45,228 nt of DNA from Paludibacter sp. (GTDB lineage Bacteria; Bacteroidota; Bacteroidia; Bacteroidales; Paludibacteraceae). Where the stretch lies: assembly GCA_010365115.1 (NCBI GenBank), contig JAAFGX010000057.1, positions 1-45,228 of the forward strand, written 5' to 3'. Position numbers and translations under genes: made by a program. Under the pieces are notes generated by a model. The model was given only the letters and a program-made list of their open reading frames with translations, did no database searches and was not told the origin of the DNA. Below, piece after piece: positions 11,747 to 21,770 of this stretch (position 1 is its first letter; every line of letters begins with the position of its first letter).

Positions 11747-13510
11747 ATGGCTGATAAACAAAAAAAACAACTTACGAACGAAAAAACTGCTAAACCAAAT
11801 ATTTTTGCAGTTTTAAAACCATACAAACTAATGATTTTTGGCCTAATCAGCTTTGCACTATTAAGCAATGCGGTGAATCTGGTCATCCCTAAATTGATTT
11901 CACGTGGCATTGATGACTTCTCCGCCGGTAACTTTTCGTACCAACGACTTATCATCCAATTTTTAATAGCTGCATTTGTCATATTTGTGTTTACTTTCTT
12001 ACAAGGCATTTTACAAACCTATTCTTCAGAGCAAGTTGCGCGCGATTTACGCACCAAACTCACCGATAAAATTTCTCGTCAGAGTTATGCTTTTATCCAA
12101 AACGCCAACCCTTCGAAACTCCTTACCAACCTCACTTCCGACATGGATTCGGTGAAGTTGTTCGTTTCAATGGCTATTGTTTCGTTGGCTTCTTCTCTAT
12201 TTATAATTATTGGGGCAAGCATTTTACTTTTTTCAATCAATTGGAAACTGGCTTTGTCGGTTTTATCTATTATTCCAATAATAAGTATCGCGTTTTATTT
12301 GGTATTCAGAAAAGTAGGTGTTTTGTTTAAAAAAAGCCGTGAAGTAATTGACTGGCTGAACAAAGTTATTAACGAAAGCATAATGGGAGCAGCATTGGTG
12401 CGGGTGCTCAATTCGCAAACGCAGGAATATAATAAGTTTCTGGATGCCAACACGCAAGCCAAAAATCTGGGACTGTCCATTCTCCGCCTTTTTGCAACGC
12501 TGATACCTATTGTGGTATTTGTAAGCAACATGGCAACACTTATCATTCTTGCTTTGGGAGGACATTATGTGATTACGGATGCCATGACGCTGGGCGATTT
12601 TGCGGCTTTCAATTCGTATTTGGTGTTGCTTATTTTTCCAATTATCATCATTGGGTTTATCAGTAATTTTGTGGTGCAGGCTTCTGTTTCCTATGCACGA
12701 ATTTGCACTGTGTTGGACGCAGAAGAAACGCATGATACAGGAACTGTAAACACACCACTAAAAGGCAACATAGAAATGCAAAATATCACAGTACGATACG
12801 GTGACAAACCTGCTTTGAAAAACATTTCGTTCCAAATACAAAAAGGGAGTAAAACAGCAGTCATTGGTCCTACGGCAGCCGGTAAAACTCAATTACTGTA
12901 TTTGCTCACCGGATTAATACATCCCGAAAATGGCAGTATTTTGTTTGATGGTGTAAACATCAACAATTACAACAAAGAAACTTTTCAGCATCAAATCGGC
13001 TTTGTATTTCAGGACAGCGTTATTTTCAATATGAGTCTTCGCGAAAATATTGCTTTCAACGAAAAAGTGACTGAAGAATTGATGACAAAAGCCATTGAGA
13101 CTGCCGAATTGAATGATTTTATCGATGCGCTTCCCAAAGGTTTAGAGACTATGGTGAGTGAACGCGGCACCAGTCTTTCGGGCGGTCAGAAACAGCGCAT
13201 CATGCTGGCAAGGGCATTGGCACTGAACCCGAAAATTCTGCTACTCGACGATTTCACTGCACGTGTTGACAGCCAAACGGAACAAAATATTTTGGAGAAT
13301 GTGGAGAAAAATTATCCCGGAATAACCTTGCTTTCAGTTACCCAGAAAATTGCTTCGGTTCAAGACTACGAACAAATAATATTATTGGAAGAAGGCGAAG
13401 TATTGGCTCGCGGAACGCACGAAACGCTTATGAATATGAGTCCTGAGTATGTTCAGATTTATAATTCACAACGAAGTACCAATCATTTTGAGCTGACACC
13501 TAACTTCTAA
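11747..13510 (+). CDS. ABC exporter half-transporter, subunit with degenerate ATP site
   Basis: This 587-residue half-transporter has a six-helix membrane domain (about 30-310) and an ATPase domain. Walker A is GPTAAGKT (from about 374) and the signature is a canonical LSGGQ, but Walker B is LLLDDF with Asp502 in place of the catalytic Glu, and the H-loop His is replaced by Gln533 (SVTQK). This subunit therefore contributes the inactive half of one ATP site. The next gene (13646) shows the opposite pattern, so the two should form a heterodimeric exporter of the BmrCD/TM287-288 or MdlAB type. The substrate, a drug, lipid or peptide, cannot be told. Confidence 0.9.
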   Translation: MADKQKKQLTNEKTAKPNIFAVLKPYKLMIFGLISFALLSNAVNLVIPKLISRGIDDFSAGNFSYQRLIIQFLIAAFVIFVFTFLQGILQTYSSEQVARDLRTKLTDKISRQSYAFIQNANPSKLLTNLTSDMDSVKLFVSMAIVSLASSLFIIIGASILLFSINWKLALSVLSIIPIISIAFYLVFRKVGVLFKKSREVIDWLNKVINESIMGAALVRVLNSQTQEYNKFLDANTQAKNLGLSILRLFATLIPIVVFVSNMATLIILALGGHYVITDAMTLGDFAAFNSYLVLLIFPIIIIGFISNFVVQASVSYARICTVLDAEETHDTGTVNTPLKGNIEMQNITVRYGDKPALKNISFQIQKGSKTAVIGPTAAGKTQLLYLLTGLIHPENGSILFDGVNINNYNKETFQHQIGFVFQDSVIFNMSLRENIAFNEKVTEELMTKAIETAELNDFIDALPKGLETMVSERGTSLSGGQKQRIMLARALALNPKILLLDDFTARVDSQTEQNILENVEKNYPGITLLSVTQKIASVQDYEQIILLEEGEVLARGTHETLMNMSPEYVQIYNSQRSTNHFELTPNF

Positions 13511-13512
13511 AG

Positions 13513-13626
13513 AACCCCTAACCCCTAAAGGGAAATTGAGGTTAGTTGTCTCCTGTATTTTTTAGCGTTCAGATATGTGTTTTCAGTTATCATTTCTAAT
13601 TATTTTCCCCTTTAGAAGTTAGGGGT
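13513..13626. repeat. Pair of GC-rich palindromic repeats between the ABC genes
   Basis: The gap between the two exporter genes holds AACCCCTAACCCCTAAAGGG (from 13513) and, in reverse orientation, CCCCTTTAGAAGTTAGGGGT (13607-13626). The second differs by two bases from the copy just before nuoCD at 30092. This is the genome's dispersed CCCCTAA repeat family, also found throughout the nuo operon. Confidence 0.7.
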
Positions 13627-13645
13627 AATCATTTAAATAGTATTT

Positions 13646-15412
13646 ATGAGTTACAATCTCAACATAAAAAAAGGAATTACTTCCAACGAAAAAGTCAGTA
13701 CGGCTACCACCTTGAAACGCCTGATGACATTGATGGGTAATGAGCGGAACAACCTTTACATTGCAATGGTTTTTATTTTTATCAATTCGGGTTTAAACCT
13801 TATCGGCCCTTATTTGATAGGACATGCAGTGGATAATTATGTGGTTACCAAACAATATGAAGGCGTAATAAAATACTCCATTATTCTGTTTGGCGTTTTT
13901 TGTTTGGCCATGGTGAGCGGTTATGCTCAAGCACAATTGATGGGACAAGTGGGTCAACGCATGTTGTTCAATTTGCGAAATACTGTTTTCACAAAATTGC
14001 AAGAATTGCCCATCGATTTCTTCAATCAAAACAAAGCGGGTGATTTGATTTCGCGTGTGAACAACGATACCGATAAAATCAACCAATTCTTTTCTCAATC
14101 GCTGGTGCAGTTTATGAGCAGCATTTTCACTATGTTGGGAGCCGGCATATTTCTGATTTCCATCAATCCAAAACTAGCTTTAGCAGCCCTCGCTCCTGCC
14201 CTGTTCTTATTAATTTTTACACGCAGCATTTCGCCCTGGGTAAAAAACAAGAACGCTGTAAATATGAAAAGTACCGGAAGCCTAAGTGCCGAAATTCAAG
14301 AGAGCCTGAATAACTTCAAAGTCATTGTTGCCTTTAATCGCCGCGATTATTTCCGCAAACGTTTTGCCGAGGTAAACAACGAAAATTATAATAGTGCAGT
14401 AAAAGCCGGAGTTGCGAATAACGTTTTTGCTCCTTTTTTCAGTTTTTCGTCGAGTATTGGGCAATTGGTGGTGCTGGCGTTTGGTATTTATCTTATTTCG
14501 GTTGGTCAGTTTTCTATTGGTTTGTTGATCAGCTTTTTGGCGTATATTGCACAATTTTACAATCCACTCCGACAAATTGCCGTTTTGTGGGCTAACTTTC
14601 AGGTGGCTTTAGCTGGTTGGGATCGCATTTCTCAGATCCTGGTCTTGGAAAACAATTTGGAAGTTATGGAAACTACGGTAAAAGAGGATACTGGTAGTTT
14701 GTTGTCCTTTCGCAATGTATCATTTTCGTATATTCCAGGTACCGAAATTTTGAGAAATGTAAGTTTCGATCTGGAACGTGGCAAAACGTATGCATTTGTA
14801 GGTCCAACAGGTGGTGGAAAAACAACCACAGCCTCACTTATAGCACGTTTGTACGATCCAACTAAAGGACAAATTTTACTCAACGGAGTTGATATTCGCT
14901 CGTTAACTGCCATTGAACGAACAGCCAAAATAGGGTTTATTCTACAAGAACCTTTTATTTTCAGTGGCACCATTCGCGATAATATTTTGTACGGAAACGC
15001 TTGCTTTAGCCAACTCAGTAACGAAGAATTAATCTCAGAATTGAAAGAAGTAGGACTTGAAGGTTTGCTCGAACGTTTTGATGGAGGACTTATGGGCGAA
15101 ATAAACACTTCGGGCGATGGCATCAGTCTCGGTCAAAAACAACTTATCGCTTTTATGCGAGCCGTGCTTCGCCGCCCCGATTTGCTGATTCTCGACGAAG
15201 CCACTGCCAATATCGATACAGTTACCGAGCAATTGCTCGACGAAATTTTGCGAAAACTCCCCAAAAGCACCATCCGCATTATCATTGCGCATCGGTTAAA
15301 CACCATCGAAAGTGCCGACGAAATTTACTTTATCAATTCCGGATCGGTAACAAAAGCTGGCTCCATACAAGATGCGGTGAAATTGCTAATGAATGGGAAA
15401 AGAGAAAGTTGA
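13646..15412 (+). CDS. ABC exporter half-transporter, catalytically competent subunit
   Basis: This 588-residue half-transporter has a membrane domain (about 35-325) and an ATPase domain with Walker A GPTGGGKT, Walker B LLILDEAT with the catalytic Glu, and the H-loop His (IIAHR). Its signature is ISLGQ instead of LSGGQ. In the ABC dimer each ATP sits between the Walker motifs of one subunit and the signature of the other. This odd signature therefore pairs with the Asp-Walker B of the upstream subunit, giving one degenerate and one consensus site. The intracellular loops and NDTDKINQF segment are typical of type IV exporters. A terminator follows at 15432. Confidence 0.92.
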   Translation: MSYNLNIKKGITSNEKVSTATTLKRLMTLMGNERNNLYIAMVFIFINSGLNLIGPYLIGHAVDNYVVTKQYEGVIKYSIILFGVFCLAMVSGYAQAQLMGQVGQRMLFNLRNTVFTKLQELPIDFFNQNKAGDLISRVNNDTDKINQFFSQSLVQFMSSIFTMLGAGIFLISINPKLALAALAPALFLLIFTRSISPWVKNKNAVNMKSTGSLSAEIQESLNNFKVIVAFNRRDYFRKRFAEVNNENYNSAVKAGVANNVFAPFFSFSSSIGQLVVLAFGIYLISVGQFSIGLLISFLAYIAQFYNPLRQIAVLWANFQVALAGWDRISQILVLENNLEVMETTVKEDTGSLLSFRNVSFSYIPGTEILRNVSFDLERGKTYAFVGPTGGGKTTTASLIARLYDPTKGQILLNGVDIRSLTAIERTAKIGFILQEPFIFSGTIRDNILYGNACFSQLSNEELISELKEVGLEGLLERFDGGLMGEINTSGDGISLGQKQLIAFMRAVLRRPDLLILDEATANIDTVTEQLLDEILRKLPKSTIRIIIAHRLNTIESADEIYFINSGSVTKAGSIQDAVKLLMNGKRES

Positions 15413-15627: not shown

Positions 15628-18600
15628 ATGGGGCTTTTTCAAAAATCAGTAATTTCAAAATATCTTAAAACTCAAAACAAAGAGAATTTAGCTTCGAAAT
15701 GGGCGATTTATAGAACCTATTTTCTGAATCCAAAAGTTCAGGAGGAAATTAGAAGTTTGAAGGAAGAACAGTACCAAGGTGAGTTTTTGGAGGAATTATT
15801 TGTAAAAATACTAGGCTACACAAAGCCGGCATCTTCTTGCGAAACAAAATTCAATTTAACTACTGAATATAAAAATATTAAGGACAGTAAAAAAGTTGAT
15901 GGTGCAATTATTGTCGAAGATAAAGTTAAGGCTGTAATAGAACTTAAAGGAACTAATACAACAGATTTAGGGAAGATTGAAGTACAAGCATTTGGCTATA
16001 AAAACAACCAGCCCGACTGCATTTACGTCATAACATCTAATTTTGAAAAACTGCGGTTTTATATTGATAATGCTATTGAGCATATTGATTTCAACCTTTT
16101 TACGCTTACCGAAGAAGAATTTCAACTACTTTATTTGTGTCTTGGTTTTGAAAATTTATCCCAAAACATAGCCAAGAAAATTAAGGATGATTCATTAAGC
16201 GAAGAAGATTTAATTACCAAAAAACTATACAAGGACTATTCATTATTCAAAAGAGAATTGCATCAAAATCTGGTGGAATTAAATCCAGACTATGATCCTT
16301 TAGTCCTTTTCAAAAAATCACAAAAATTACTCGATAGATTTCTGTTTCTATTCTTTGGTGAAGACAGGCATTTATTACCTCCAAACTCTGTGCGATTGAT
16401 TTTAACGCAATGGAATCAACTTAGAGAACTTGATGAATACACCCCGCTTTATGTAAGGTTTAAAAAATACTTTGGCTACCTTAATACCGGTCACAAAGGC
16501 AAACAACACGATGTGTTTGCCTACAACGGTGGTCTGTTTAAACCGGATGAAGTATTGGATACATTAAAAATTGATGACAACTTACTTTACAAACACACAT
16601 TGAAGCTTTCGGAGTATGATTTTGCGAGTGAAGTGGATGTAAATATATTGGGTCATATTTTTGAGAATTCTTTAAATGAGTTGGACGAGATTAAAGCACA
16701 ATTTGAAGGGCAGGAAATAGACAAAACCAAGACGAAACGAAAAAAAGATGGCATTTTTTATACTCCAAAATACATAACCAAATATATTGTAGAGAACACA
16801 ATTGGAAAGCTTTGCGAGGAAAAGAAGACTGAACTTCGAATTGTTGAAGAAGAATATTTTACCGATAAGAAAAGAACCAAAACAACTAAACTGCCTTTAT
16901 TAGAAAAGCTTGAAATATACAGAAAATGGTTATTACAACTCACCATTTGCGACCCTGCGTGCGGTTCGGGTGCATTCCTTAACCAAGCGTTGGATTTTCT
17001 GATTACCGAACACCGGTATGTGGATGAACTGCAAGCTAAGTTGTTTGGCGACGCAATGGTGTTGAGTGATATTGAAAACAGCATTTTGGAAAACAACTTA
17101 TTTGGCGTTGACTTGAATGAAGAAAGCGTTGAGATAGCCAAACTCTCACTCTGGTTACGCACCGCCCAACCGAATAGAAAACTCAACGACCTGAGCAACA
17201 ATATAAAATGCGGAAATTCCCTTATCGATGACCCAAAAGTGGCTGTTGACAAAGCATTTGATTGGCAAAAAGAATTTCCACAAGTGTTTGGGGCAAAAAA
17301 AGATATTGGAGTTGAGTTAGTTGACCAGCTACCCATCGAGCCCGATTATTTATCGCTACTTGAAGCCGATGCCAAAGAAGCTGCTGAAAAAGCCAACAAA
17401 GCCATAGCCTTATCAAAAGAAGCGATAGCACTGTCCGAAAAAGCGGCAGCACTTTCCTTAAAAGCGTATGAATACGCTCAAAAACTAAAATCGGTAAGCG
17501 AGCCACAAGAGTTGTATGGAATAAATAAAGGTGGATTTGACGTGGTGATTGGAAATCCGCCGTATGGAGCAGAACTTTCACAAGAACATAAAGTGTATTT
17601 GGAAGCATATTATGAAACTTTTGAATATCAGGTAAATACATATGTATTATTCTATGAGAGAGGACTAAAAATATTGAATTATCAAGGTATTCTTGGATAC
17701 ATAACCCCTGCAACATTCACATATCAACATTATTTTAAAAAAATCAGGGATTTCTTACATAAATACAAACTAGTTGCAATAAGTAAATTTTATTATGAAG
17801 TTTTTGAGGATGCAGATATTGGTGATTCTGTAATTTACATAGTTGAAAAGACTAATAATGACAATGGTAATGTGATAATTCAATTATGTTCAACAAAAGA
17901 AGATTCAATGGAATTTCCTTTGGTAAAAAAATATAGTGAAATAATTAATCTATCCGATGGAATTTACTCCTTATCTAAATCGTGTTTTAATATTCATAAA
18001 ACATATAAAGATTGTCGAAAATTAGCTGAGATAAGTAACATAATAGTTGGAATAAAACCATATCAAACTGGCAAAGGAGAACCAAAACAAACTAACGAAA
18101 ATGTTATTTCAAAGGATTTTACTGCTACTACAAAGAAAAACGAAACCTATATTCAATGTGTCATTGGAAAAGATTTTCATCGTTATAAGTATTTACAAGA
18201 ACCAAGCATGTATTTAAGTTATGGCAAATGGTTAGCTGAACCAAGAAAAGGCGCTCCTTTTTTTGATGATGAAAAAATATTAATTAGACAAACAGCAGAT
18301 TCTCTAATTTGTCAATTAGACTCAAACAAAAGAATTAATTTGAATAATGTTTATAATATAGGTCAAATTGAAAAGAGTTTTGAATTGAAATATATTCTAT
18401 CATTGCTCAATAGCAAACTTATGAACCTAATTTATCAAAGTATTTCTCAAGAAAAGGGGAGATTATTTGCTGAAGTAAAAAAAATTAATCTTGCAAAATT
18501 GCCAATTAAAGTAATAAGTTCGGAACAGCAAAAACCCTTTATTGCAAAAGTAGATATTTTAATCTGGTCAAATAAAGAATTACAACAAATTTCCCAAAAA

Positions 18601-18822
18601 TTCCAACGCACCTTTCAACGAAAATTTGAATTAGAAGATTTGCCAAAGAGACTGCAAGATTGGTATTTGCTATCTTATGCCGATTTTATAAGAGAATTGA
18701 CCAAAAAGAAGGTGAAGTTATCGCTTTCGGAAGAAGCAGAATGGGAAGATTATTTCTTGCAAGAAAGTAAAACAACAATTCCGAAAGGACTCAATATATT
18801 CTTTAGCAATTCATTGAATTAA
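15628..18822 (+). CDS. Eco57I-like restriction-modification protein, C-terminally truncated by an IS
   Basis: This is a single-chain (type IIG-like) enzyme that both methylates and cuts DNA. An N-terminal nuclease domain has the PD-(D/E)xK pattern VDGAI (Asp91) then IELKG (Glu105, Lys107). Methylase motif I is CDPACGSGAF (441-450) and motif IV is NPPY (643-646). An Ala/Lys/Ser-rich helical insert (about 581-621) lies between them. The rest resembles a TaqI/Eco57I C-terminal target-recognition domain. The reading ends abnormally: after FLQESK the last 16 codons (TTIPKGLNIFFSNSLN) come from the inserted element. Removing the IS gives a 1085-residue protein ending VYELYELTNEEIDIVEQT. The truncated form may have lost activity. 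No separate methylase or specificity gene lies nearby. Confidence 0.88.
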   Translation: MGLFQKSVISKYLKTQNKENLASKWAIYRTYFLNPKVQEEIRSLKEEQYQGEFLEELFVKILGYTKPASSCETKFNLTTEYKNIKDSKKVDGAIIVEDKVKAVIELKGTNTTDLGKIEVQAFGYKNNQPDCIYVITSNFEKLRFYIDNAIEHIDFNLFTLTEEEFQLLYLCLGFENLSQNIAKKIKDDSLSEEDLITKKLYKDYSLFKRELHQNLVELNPDYDPLVLFKKSQKLLDRFLFLFFGEDRHLLPPNSVRLILTQWNQLRELDEYTPLYVRFKKYFGYLNTGHKGKQHDVFAYNGGLFKPDEVLDTLKIDDNLLYKHTLKLSEYDFASEVDVNILGHIFENSLNELDEIKAQFEGQEIDKTKTKRKKDGIFYTPKYITKYIVENTIGKLCEEKKTELRIVEEEYFTDKKRTKTTKLPLLEKLEIYRKWLLQLTICDPACGSGAFLNQALDFLITEHRYVDELQAKLFGDAMVLSDIENSILENNLFGVDLNEESVEIAKLSLWLRTAQPNRKLNDLSNNIKCGNSLIDDPKVAVDKAFDWQKEFPQVFGAKKDIGVELVDQLPIEPDYLSLLEADAKEAAEKANKAIALSKEAIALSEKAAALSLKAYEYAQKLKSVSEPQELYGINKGGFDVVIGNPPYGAELSQEHKVYLEAYYETFEYQVNTYVLFYERGLKILNYQGILGYITPATFTYQHYFKKIRDFLHKYKLVAISKFYYEVFEDADIGDSVIYIVEKTNNDNGNVIIQLCSTKEDSMEFPLVKKYSEIINLSDGIYSLSKSCFNIHKTYKDCRKLAEISNIIVGIKPYQTGKGEPKQTNENVISKDFTATTKKNETYIQCVIGKDFHRYKYLQEPSMYLSYGKWLAEPRKGAPFFDDEKILIRQTADSLICQLDSNKRINLNNVYNIGQIEKSFELKYILSLLNSKLMNLIYQSISQEKGRLFAEVKKINLAKLPIKVISSEQQKPFIAKVDILIWSNKELQQISQKFQRTFQRKFELEDLPKRLQDWYLLSYADFIRELTKKKVKLSLSEEAEWEDYFLQESKTTIPKGLNIFFSNSLN
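18766..18772. repeat. Left copy of 7-bp target-site duplication
   Basis: AGTAAAA directly before the left IS end. The same seven bases follow the right end at 20633-20639. Confidence 0.85.
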
Positions 18823-18970
18823 CATTCCGATGAATAATGGACATAACACTCCATTGTCTAAATCTCTTAGGCAATTAATGTTTATCTATTTACTTTTGTT
18901 TGCGTTTACCTCCAGTTGTTTTTAAATTGTGTTTTCCTGATTTCAGGGAGCAGGACATCTCCAAATGAAC

Positions 18971-20329
18971 TCAATCTACATATTGAATTTGAGTTCGATG
19001 ATTTATTATTTGTTCAATTTTATGGATTTGGATATCGCCATAAATCATAAACGAACACAGACAAAACCAGATATGCTTTATAGTAGTCTTGGCTGGTTTA
19101 AACGGCAATATGTTTTTCGATAGCTCTACTAACTGATTAAATATGTGAGCTATTTGGCAGCATTGATAATAGTTTTTCATACCCTTGTATGATTTACGGC
19201 AGTATTTGTGTCTGATATTATAGCCATGGTTTTTTTGTTGGTCAAAGCCCTGTTTTTCAATTTTCCAACGCAGTCTTCCAGTGGTGCTAATATCGCGAGC
19301 ATTTTCTTGCGATATTTCAATATTTGTCAAATGCACAAACTTAAAAACAGTTATTTTACCTTTTAAAGCTGTCTGTGTTTCATCTGTTTGAATCCAATTA
19401 TGAACCAAACCGTTATGTTCAATGTCATTAATATATTGATATTTCTGCACGTACTCAATTGGTCCTTCGGTATGTTGATGTTCTTGATTTACATGCGTGG
19501 TTTCTCTTATTTTTTTCCATAATCGTTTAAGCGATTTGTCGGGAAGGGTGACAATATAACTCCAATTGTACTTCTTGCAGATTTCGAAAAACGTATTATT
19601 CGGGTATAAACCATCGGCACACAAGCAAATAGCCATTCGTGGAAAATCTTTTTTTAATTTCTCAGATAATCTTACAAAAGCTTTACTCTCACAGTCTTGC
19701 TTATCATACTCCGTTCCATCATTCTCAATCCACTCGGTGCATAACGAAATACTAAATCCATTTTTAGTAACTAGCTTAGCTTCAAGTACATTGTGAAAAT
19801 AGACTATTTTCTCTACTTTTCGTTTTTCGTTTGCTTTGTAAATGCGAAAAAGACATTTGTCGCAATGTTTTTCTTTGAAATTAACAAGCCCGGTGGCATC
19901 AATTGCCACAATTACTTTAGCTTCAAACCGCCATTTGTCAAATACTTTCTTTTCCATTAACTGTTTCACTAATGTCAGTTTTAACTTTTCAAGTTCTACG
20001 ATTGGCATTTCTTTGAATACCAATGTGATAGAATCCATGTGCGGAATCCTGAATTTAAATGCTTTATAGAAATTTTTCTTGAATTCACCTTCACCTGCAA
20101 CATTGTTCATGTTGTTCCGGGAACCCGATTTAAATACAAACATTGCGATGGCACCAAATACAATCTCACTGATAGTGTATTGCCATGCCTTTCGGGAGTC
20201 GGCAACGGCACTTAGCTGCCTGTCCAAATCGGGAAAATGGTGAGTGATGATGTTTGTAAACTCATAAGCAAACTCTTTGAGATCGCTTTTTTTCTGTAAG
20301 TTTTTTCTCGCTGCTTGTTGCTGAGCCAA
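18971..20329 (-). CDS. DDE transposase of the insertion sequence
   Basis: This 452-residue transposase cuts and joins the IS ends. A likely catalytic triad is Asp144 (VAIDATG), Asp239 (CADGLYPNN) and Glu358 (RWKIEKQGF), the last in a C-terminal helix as in the IS4-like RNase H fold. HCDKC at 156-160 could bind a metal. The start is a TTG at 20327-20329; no in-frame ATG lies between it and the upstream TAG at 20357-20359, and the next internal Met is well inside the conserved part. The rare start may keep expression low. The frame is complete between perfect ends, so the element may still be active. Confidence 0.88.
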   Translation of the reverse strand: MAQQQAARKNLQKKSDLKEFAYEFTNIITHHFPDLDRQLSAVADSRKAWQYTISEIVFGAIAMFVFKSGSRNNMNNVAGEGEFKKNFYKAFKFRIPHMDSITLVFKEMPIVELEKLKLTLVKQLMEKKVFDKWRFEAKVIVAIDATGLVNFKEKHCDKCLFRIYKANEKRKVEKIVYFHNVLEAKLVTKNGFSISLCTEWIENDGTEYDKQDCESKAFVRLSEKLKKDFPRMAICLCADGLYPNNTFFEICKKYNWSYIVTLPDKSLKRLWKKIRETTHVNQEHQHTEGPIEYVQKYQYINDIEHNGLVHNWIQTDETQTALKGKITVFKFVHLTNIEISQENARDISTTGRLRWKIEKQGFDQQKNHGYNIRHKYCRKSYKGMKNYYQCCQIAHIFNQLVELSKNILPFKPAKTTIKHIWFCLCSFMIYGDIQIHKIEQIINHRTQIQYVD

Positions 20330-20406
20330 AAATTTCCGTGTTTTTTTGTTCTTTTTCTAATCCCTGTGAAAATAACGTTAAATGTCGTAAATGCTTTACT
20401 GTAAGC

Positions 20407-20437
20407 TTGTTTGCTTGGTAATTTATTACTATCTTTG
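20407..20437 (+). promoter_or_regulatory. Complete -33/-7 promoter inside the IS, pointing outward
   Basis: TTG (20407-20409), 20 bp, then TATCTTTG (20430-20437): the spacing fits the 19-21 bp typical of Bacteroidota housekeeping promoters, the best-spaced match noticed in the window. It fires away from the transposase, towards the right IS end and the oxidoreductase gene. Confidence 0.6.
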
Positions 20438-20632
20438 TATCAGAAAAGCATAAGGCTTTATAGCTCTGGCTTATGTTAATTATTATGTATTAGAGCTATA
20501 TTAAAAACCCAGAAGGGATATGAAACTTATAACTCTCTCAGGGGGCAACCTCTGTATGCCCATATTTAACACGAAAAGCGATTTTTATATATCCTTGTTA
20601 TTTAGGTGGATATAAGGCTTTCTGAATTGTTG
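20438..20632 (+). ncRNA. Candidate IS-borne structured RNA
   Basis: Downstream of the promoter there is no plausible gene but several hairpins: AAGC/GCTT (20449-20458), TATAGCTCT/AGAGCTATA (20459-20467 with 20492-20500), GGGC/GCCC (20543-20546 with 20558-20561) and TATATCC/GGATATA (20588-20594 with 20608-20614). The region fills the right end of the element. It could be an antisense or guide-like RNA, a transposition regulator, or merely transposase-binding DNA. Transcription is inferred only from the promoter. Confidence 0.3.
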
Positions 20633-20752
20633 AGTAAAAAGGCTTTGGAGTTAAAAGCCACAATTGATGCCACCGATAAAGCCATTGACCAAATGGTTTA
20701 TGAATTGTATGAGTTGACGAATGAGGAAATTGACATAGTTGAACAAACCTAA
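20633..20752 (+). pseudogene. Severed C-terminus of the Eco57I-like restriction-modification gene
   Basis: The frame from 20640 reads KALELKATIDATDKAIDQ and goes on to VYELYELTNEEIDIVEQT before TAA at 20750-20752. This is the usual ending of Eco57I-type enzymes. The fragment has no start of its own. AGTAAAA at 20633-20639 is the right copy of the target duplication, and joining 15628-18772 to 20640-20752 gives an uninterrupted frame of 1086 codons including the stop. Confidence 0.9.
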
Positions 20753-20810
20753 ATACCCTAGGAATTGTTTACTTGTATTGAAAACCCTAAAACACATAAC
20801 GAATATAACA

Positions 20811-21770
20811 ATGAAGGCAATTGTAAACACCAAATACGGCCCGCCGGAAGTTCTTCAACTGAAGGAAGTGGAAAAACCAACTCCAAAAACCAACGAAGTA
20901 CTTATTAAAATACATGCAACCACTGTAAACAGAACCGATTGTGGATTCAGAAAGCCCGAATATATTATTGTCAGACTTATAAGCGGCATTTTTAAACCCA
21001 AGAAAACAATTTTGGGAAGCGAACTGGCCGGTCAGATTGAAGCTATTGGTAAAGATGTGAAAACATTTAAACCGGGCGATCAAGTTTTTGGTTTAAGCAC
21101 TTACAATTTTGGTACTCATGCCGAATATATTTGTGTAACTGAACACTCTTCAATAGCTCCTAAACCAGCAAATATATCTTATAATCAGGCGGCGGCTATT
21201 TGTGATGGAGCTTTTTTGGCAATGGCTTATATACGGAAAATTGATTTTAGTAAAAAACCTAAAATTCTAATCAATGGAGCTTCTGGTTCGATTGGAACTG
21301 CTGGCGTTCAACTTGCAAAATATTTTGGTGCCGAAATTACTGCTGTCTGCAGCACTAAAAATATTGAATTGGTAAAATCGTTGGGAGCCGACAAAGTGAT
21401 TGATTATACAAAAGAAGATTTCACTAAAAATGGTCAACAATATGATGTTATCTTTGATTCTGTTGGAAAAAGTTCCTATTTTAAGTGTAAAAAAATAATG
21501 AAGCCAAATGCAATTTATTTTTCTTCGGAACTTGGATATTTATGGCAGAATATATTTCTATCACTCTTTACTCCAATTTTTGGCGGTAAAAAAGTGTTGT
21601 TCCCAATTCCAAAAGACACGAAAGAAGATATAGTGTTTTTTAAAGAGCTGATTGAAGCAGGAAAGTACAGAGCGGTAATTGACAGGACTTATAGTCTTGA
21701 ACAAATGGTGGAGGCTACCAAATATGTTGAAACAGGTGAGAAAACTGGTAATGTTGTTATTACTTTGTAA
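20811..21770 (+). CDS. MDR-family NAD(P)-dependent alcohol dehydrogenase / quinone oxidoreductase
   Basis: This 319-residue cytosolic reductase belongs to the medium-chain dehydrogenase family. The N-terminal GroES-like domain is recognised by MKAIVNTKYGPPEVLQLKEV, VNRTDCGFR and ELAGQIEAIGKDVKTFKPGDQVFG, and the Rossmann domain by ILINGASGSIGTAGVQLAK. No structural-zinc Cys cluster is seen, as in the zinc-free quinone oxidoreductase branch. The frame is open from 20739, but that part overlaps the severed restriction gene, and the ATG at 20811 opens the conserved fold. The outward IS promoter at 20407 could drive it. The substrate is unknown. Confidence 0.88.
   Translation: MKAIVNTKYGPPEVLQLKEVEKPTPKTNEVLIKIHATTVNRTDCGFRKPEYIIVRLISGIFKPKKTILGSELAGQIEAIGKDVKTFKPGDQVFGLSTYNFGTHAEYICVTEHSSIAPKPANISYNQAAAICDGAFLAMAYIRKIDFSKKPKILINGASGSIGTAGVQLAKYFGAEITAVCSTKNIELVKSLGADKVIDYTKEDFTKNGQQYDVIFDSVGKSSYFKCKKIMKPNAIYFSSELGYLWQNIFLSLFTPIFGGKKVLFPIPKDTKEDIVFFKELIEAGKYRAVIDRTYSLEQMVEATKYVETGEKTGNVVITL

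Follow-up and report, generated by a model that had tools for sequence, protein, structure and literature searches.

Insertion of a multi-copy insertion sequence near the 3' end of a type IIG restriction-modification gene of Paludibacter sp., with probable joint loss of cutting and methylation

The window, i.e. the whole stretch of 45,228 nucleotides analysed here, is one complete contig (G000:C189) of a 4.79-Mb draft genome of Paludibacter sp. in 207 contigs, with a contamination estimate of 7.2. It carries a restriction-modification gene flanked by two ABC exporters on one side and an alcohol dehydrogenase on the other, the 3' end of which is severed by an insertion sequence (IS). The features are listed in Table 1. 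Of seven neighbouring ORFs run against PADLOC, the two exporters alone gave matches, both to MADS models; a MADS defence system was considered and rejected, the matches being taken to reflect ATPase similarity. The best matches to the exporters and to the dehydrogenase, which need not be orthologues, were on separate contigs in all 14 of the draft genomes of the genus listing both (47 others searched). On this basis the location of the restriction-modification gene may perhaps be specific to the lineage. No uninterrupted counterpart of the insertion site was found via the flanking genes in these 47 genomes.

Table 1. Features of the interrupted locus (positions in the window)
Feature	Position	Strand	Remarks
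ABC exporter genes	11747–15412		flank the restriction-modification gene
Type IIG restriction-modification ORF, present form	15628–18822	+	1064 aa
Left target duplication	18766–18772	+	AGTAAAA, 7 bp
Insertion sequence	18773–20632	- (transposase direction)	1860 bp
Left terminal inverted repeat	18773–18787	+	CAACAATTCCGAAAG
Transposase ORF	18971–20329	-	452 aa from the first TTG; DDE_Tnp_1-like
Right terminal inverted repeat	20618–20632	+	CTTTCTGAATTGTTG
Right target duplication	20633–20639	+	AGTAAAA, 7 bp
Orphan 3' end of the restriction-modification gene	20640–20752	+	native residues 1049–1085 and stop
Alcohol dehydrogenase gene	20811–21770		flanks the restriction-modification gene

The restriction-modification ORF as it stands consists of 1048 native codons plus one base (15628–18772) and then continues into the IS, which supplies the remainder of the 16 foreign codons as well as the stop. 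Its assignment as Eco57I-like, made originally without database searches, is borne out by PADLOC (REase_MTase_IIG, PDLC03609; 907.9 bits) and Pfam (Eco57I; 138.1 bits), which combine the two functions, nuclease and methyltransferase, in a single chain of about 1000 aa. A Pfam TaqI_C-like specificity domain lies at residues 847–960, upstream of the break. No Pfam model matched a nuclease domain, and NCBIfam gave below-cut-off matches to BREX and MADS methyltransferases only. In an alignment of 31 sequences, the window's included, D91, E105 and K107, assigned by eye to an N-terminal PD-(D/E)XK motif, are invariant. So are D442PACGSGAF450 and N643PPY646, which we take to be the gamma-class methyltransferase motifs I and IV. 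All these nuclease and methyltransferase motifs precede the break and are intact. Judged from its sequence, the interrupted gene is a solo type IIG restriction-modification gene, and cutting at a fixed distance together with adenine methylation is predicted for it as a member of this enzyme class.

The terminal inverted repeats of the IS are complementary at 14 of 15 positions (reported as 93% in the repeat search) and are directly flanked by the 7-bp duplication AGTAAAA, both as described in the original prediction. Within the region 18401–21200, four pairs of 15-bp inverted repeats (at least 14/15 matching, at least 600 bp apart) were found. One of the four is flanked by identical 7-mers, and this pair constitutes the IS ends. 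Pooling of 100 Markov-1 resamples of the region yielded 57 such pairs, none with a 7-bp flank match; the ends and the duplication are beyond chance. The transposase matched Pfam DDE_Tnp_1 weakly, at 24.5 bits against a cut-off of 23, and had no match in NCBIfam. Terminal inverted repeats, target duplication and a DDE transposase are thus all present in the element. A composite transposon was rejected, a single transposase and a single pair of ends being seen.

Comparison of six transposase relatives revealed the common blocks A(I/V)DGT (AIDAT in the window copy) and DGLYP, and a third block, R(L/M)RW.IE..GF, in the five of the six that are long enough. The transposase has no ATG start: an in-frame TAG lies ten codons upstream of the TTG at 20329, and on the minus strand of 20329–20360 this TAG is followed by KKNKKTRKF, the first usual start being the TTG. 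In two relatives (L041 and L046) the frame likewise opens directly behind a TAG and contains no ATG in its first 28 residues, and translation in this IS group may start in an unusual way. At the IS end upstream of the transposase (20440–20640) a hairpin is predicted, formed by the inverted repeat TATAGCTCT / AGAGCTATA; the predicted fold of this stretch has −44.9 kcal/mol, a value without shuffle control. A promoter-like TTG...TATCTTTG, matching the Bacteroidota-type promoter consensus, is located at 20407–20437 on the plus strand and points outward to the orphan tail and the dehydrogenase. A scan for sigma-70-type promoters found 7 against 8.1 expected, and Rfam at the gathering threshold gave no matches.

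The genome contains one full copy of the IS, that in the window, and five contig ends (three left and two right) which stop 92–94 bases inside the element; in this draft assembly the IS is a collapsed repeat. The window copy is identical at its ends to three of these contig ends (94/94 bases); with the other two it shares 99% identity over 92 bases. Since the three left ends have differing flanks, at least four insertions at different sites must be present in the genome, the window copy included, which answers the original call to search for further copies. The left end on contig C8 and the right end on C183 have the 8-bp duplication TAATTCTT in common, and those on C89 and C63 the 8-bp duplication GATTTATC. 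For the left end on C27 (L005), the partner half was absent among the matches in the assembly. The TAATTCTT copy (L006/L002) lies between a FloA-like and an AsnA-like gene. The GATTTATC copy (L003/L004) disrupts a DUF3347 gene near its start, the part on L003 giving the Pfam match (84.7 bits) and L004 holding the beginning of the frame; beside this gene lies a second DUF3347 gene. The C27 copy disrupts a long ORF, of which 475 aa were run against Pfam and gave no match.

In relatives of the element from other genomes of the order, duplications, read by eye, were seen directly outside the IS ends: in L042 (GCTTTAT, 7 bp), L041 (GCTAAAAC, 8 bp) and L046 (ACGAAAAT, 8 bp), and the ends of all three begin CAGCAATTCCG. 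Since the copies of the own genome that can be paired have 8 bp and these relatives 7 or 8 bp, a duplication of 7–8 bp is normal for this kind of element, that of the window being the 7-bp case. As the other copies in the own genome and L041, L042 and L046 define the ends independently and at the same bases, the ends of the window copy are correctly placed; had they been found elsewhere, the initial reading would have failed.

The transposase is rare nearby, with a match in one of the 47 other genomes of the genus (25% identity) and matches at E ≤ 1e-30 in 6 of 392 other genomes of the order. The left IS end, taken as an exact 28-base pattern, had no match in the genome_contigs set, which may omit the window's own genome; among viral_contigs, three stretches fitted a pattern for transposase relatives and none was confirmed. 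With its DDE_Tnp_1-like transposase, length of about 1.9 kb, inverted ends and short duplication the element may be closest to insertion sequences annotated ISNCY, and a weak relative on a plasmid record (H3; 25.1% identity; one of nine plasmid records matched) is annotated as ‘ISNCY family transposase’. The ISDol1 subgroup of ISNCY is presumably similar in size; one paper names ISDol1, its accessible text giving no features of the element. However, transposase identity to the nearest relatives found is only 39–50%.

Joining the two flanks with one copy of AGTAAAA restores an open frame of 1085 residues and a stop, so that the precise rejoining of the frame claimed at the outset holds. The insertion lies at codon 1049, the orphan 3' end starting at the last two bases of this codon; 37 native residues were lost and 16 IS-encoded ones gained, in agreement with the first estimate. 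The tail KALELKATIDATDKAIDQMVYELYELTNEEIDIVEQT has counterparts in relatives, and in two of these, L016 and L019, the sequence spanning the break is YFLQESKKAL. Among the best 80 named genome loci out of 212 confirmed relatives, the tail follows in frame in 65, the contig ends before it in 13, one (L077) is a split gene whose second ORF bears the tail and one (L131) is without it. A naturally shorter C-terminus was therefore rejected, and the ending at 20640–20752, the absence of which from homologues would have told against the original prediction, belongs to the gene.

Every tail residue conserved at 90% or more in these 65 relatives, which were chosen for reaching residue 1070, is unchanged in the orphan fragment, i.e. 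it shows no visible decay. Together with the near-identity of the IS ends across the genome and the perfect duplication, this supports a recent insertion, as had been proposed. In the same set (n=65, from the best 80 of 212), the commonest residue at a position has a mean frequency of 0.81 for residues 1–555, 0.45 for 634–760, 0.28 for 761–846, 0.37 for 847–960, 0.63 for 961–1048 and 0.74 for the tail (1049–1085). Relatives are close over 1–555 (best segments with up to 86% identity), diverge strongly in the specificity part and reconverge C-terminally, a pattern which, from the alignments, is that of specificity-domain exchange. Paralogues carrying the tail in open frames were found on contigs C17 (54% identity) and C184, so that the genome retains at least two related genes of this form.

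The structural position of the break was assessed on a predicted model of an intact relative (L060), in which helices span residues 1032–1070 and 1075–1083 and the end block from residue 951 onwards has a pLDDT of 83–96. The two models computed are of moderate quality overall (mean pLDDT 69.1 and 72.1; pTM 0.44 and 0.38). The break maps to L060 residue 1047, within the long C-terminal helix; the helical bundle behind the target-recognition domain is cut in the window allele and complete in the relatives. Structural alignments of CamA, M.BseCI, BpuSI and MmeI extend into this end part, those of BpuSI and MmeI being loose (11.7 and 14.8 Å). M.TaqI alignments end at model residues 962–964, i.e. 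without such a bundle. A literature search on M.BseCI returned nothing relevant. Like Eco57I, BpuSI (type IIG) and MmeI (type IIL), the enzyme combines a PD-(D/E)XK-like motif, a helical part, an N6-adenine methyltransferase, a TaqI-like specificity domain and a C-terminal helical bundle in one chain; in contrast to them, the window allele is without the end of the bundle.

We propose that a solo type IIG gene received a multi-copy IS by transposition at codon 1049, with duplication of 7 bp, and that this quite probably abolished cutting and methylation together. The truncated protein (1048 native and 16 foreign residues) would keep its PD-(D/E)XK nuclease and N6-adenine methyltransferase motifs, but in the bundle the long C-terminal helix would be reduced to its first half and the short final helix would be missing. 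Misfolding or instability of the recognition half, bundle included, would then abolish both activities. Loss of both is, in our view, the most likely consequence for the enzyme, since both activities use one recognition domain, in bifunctional enzymes of this class according to the accessible text of PMC4833311, and the break is in the bundle behind it. Such a joint loss would be harmless to the host, and the easiest outcome to survive, because no nuclease would be active on unprotected DNA and the genome has further type IIG genes. The disabling of the enzyme by the insertion is thus what we infer. In the original prediction, the host's tolerance for the loss of cutting depended on persisting methylation; this is possible but gained no support, and in view of the common recognition domain joint loss is the likelier course.

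The truncated chain might nevertheless still recognise and methylate its site, with cutting weakened or absent, and so act as a near-orphan methyltransferase. All motifs and the whole TaqI_C-like domain precede the break, and not every member of the class requires the bundle, since M.TaqI is an active methyltransferase that ends before it (PMC4833311, in the part accessible). NgoAV, a truncated type I specificity subunit, is likewise described as active with changed specificity in the available text of PMC3874165. On the other hand, conservation is higher in the tail than elsewhere in the C-terminal half, and when relatives truncated by a contig end are set aside, 65 of 67 (best 80 of 212) have it in frame, which suggests that it is needed. 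Recognition, moreover, serves both activities. We therefore consider this outcome unlikely. A stricter version, namely that the insertion uncoupled the enzyme so that it still methylates its site, possibly with relaxed specificity, and no longer cuts, a single event having turned it into an epigenetic orphan methyltransferase, strikes us as quite improbable. Alternatively, a candidate 48-residue peptide starting from the GTG at 20606 could carry the tail and rejoin the truncated enzyme in trans. The ORF 20606–20752 is open across the IS end, and the outward promoter-like TTG...TATCTTTG might drive it; however, about 0.35 such promoter matches per IS are expected by chance, and very little can be said for such complementation. 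That unrelated flanks were joined through the repeated IS during assembly, as five other contig ends stopping at this repeat, the 207 contigs and the contamination estimate might suggest, is scarcely credible, given the same 7-mer on both flanks and a right flank which carries on the same conserved protein in frame.

IS1 and IS10 insertions have been described in 12 kinds of defence gene cluster, including restriction-modification, Dnd and CRISPR-Cas (PMC10359306, accessible part), and type IIG genes were present in roughly 40% of genomes in a 2013 count (available text of PMC3874165). As in the IS1 and IS10 cases, an IS has here broken up a defence gene and left a short target duplication; the present case differs from them, as far as the accessible part of PMC10359306 goes, in IS family and host, and in that the target is a type IIG enzyme encoded by one gene, which is interrupted 37 codons before the end. 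The disruption of a defence gene by an IS is hence a documented, ordinary event in bacteria, of which this is one more instance. As a clean, recent natural truncation at a defined point of the helical bundle, this allele could serve to test what the bundle does.
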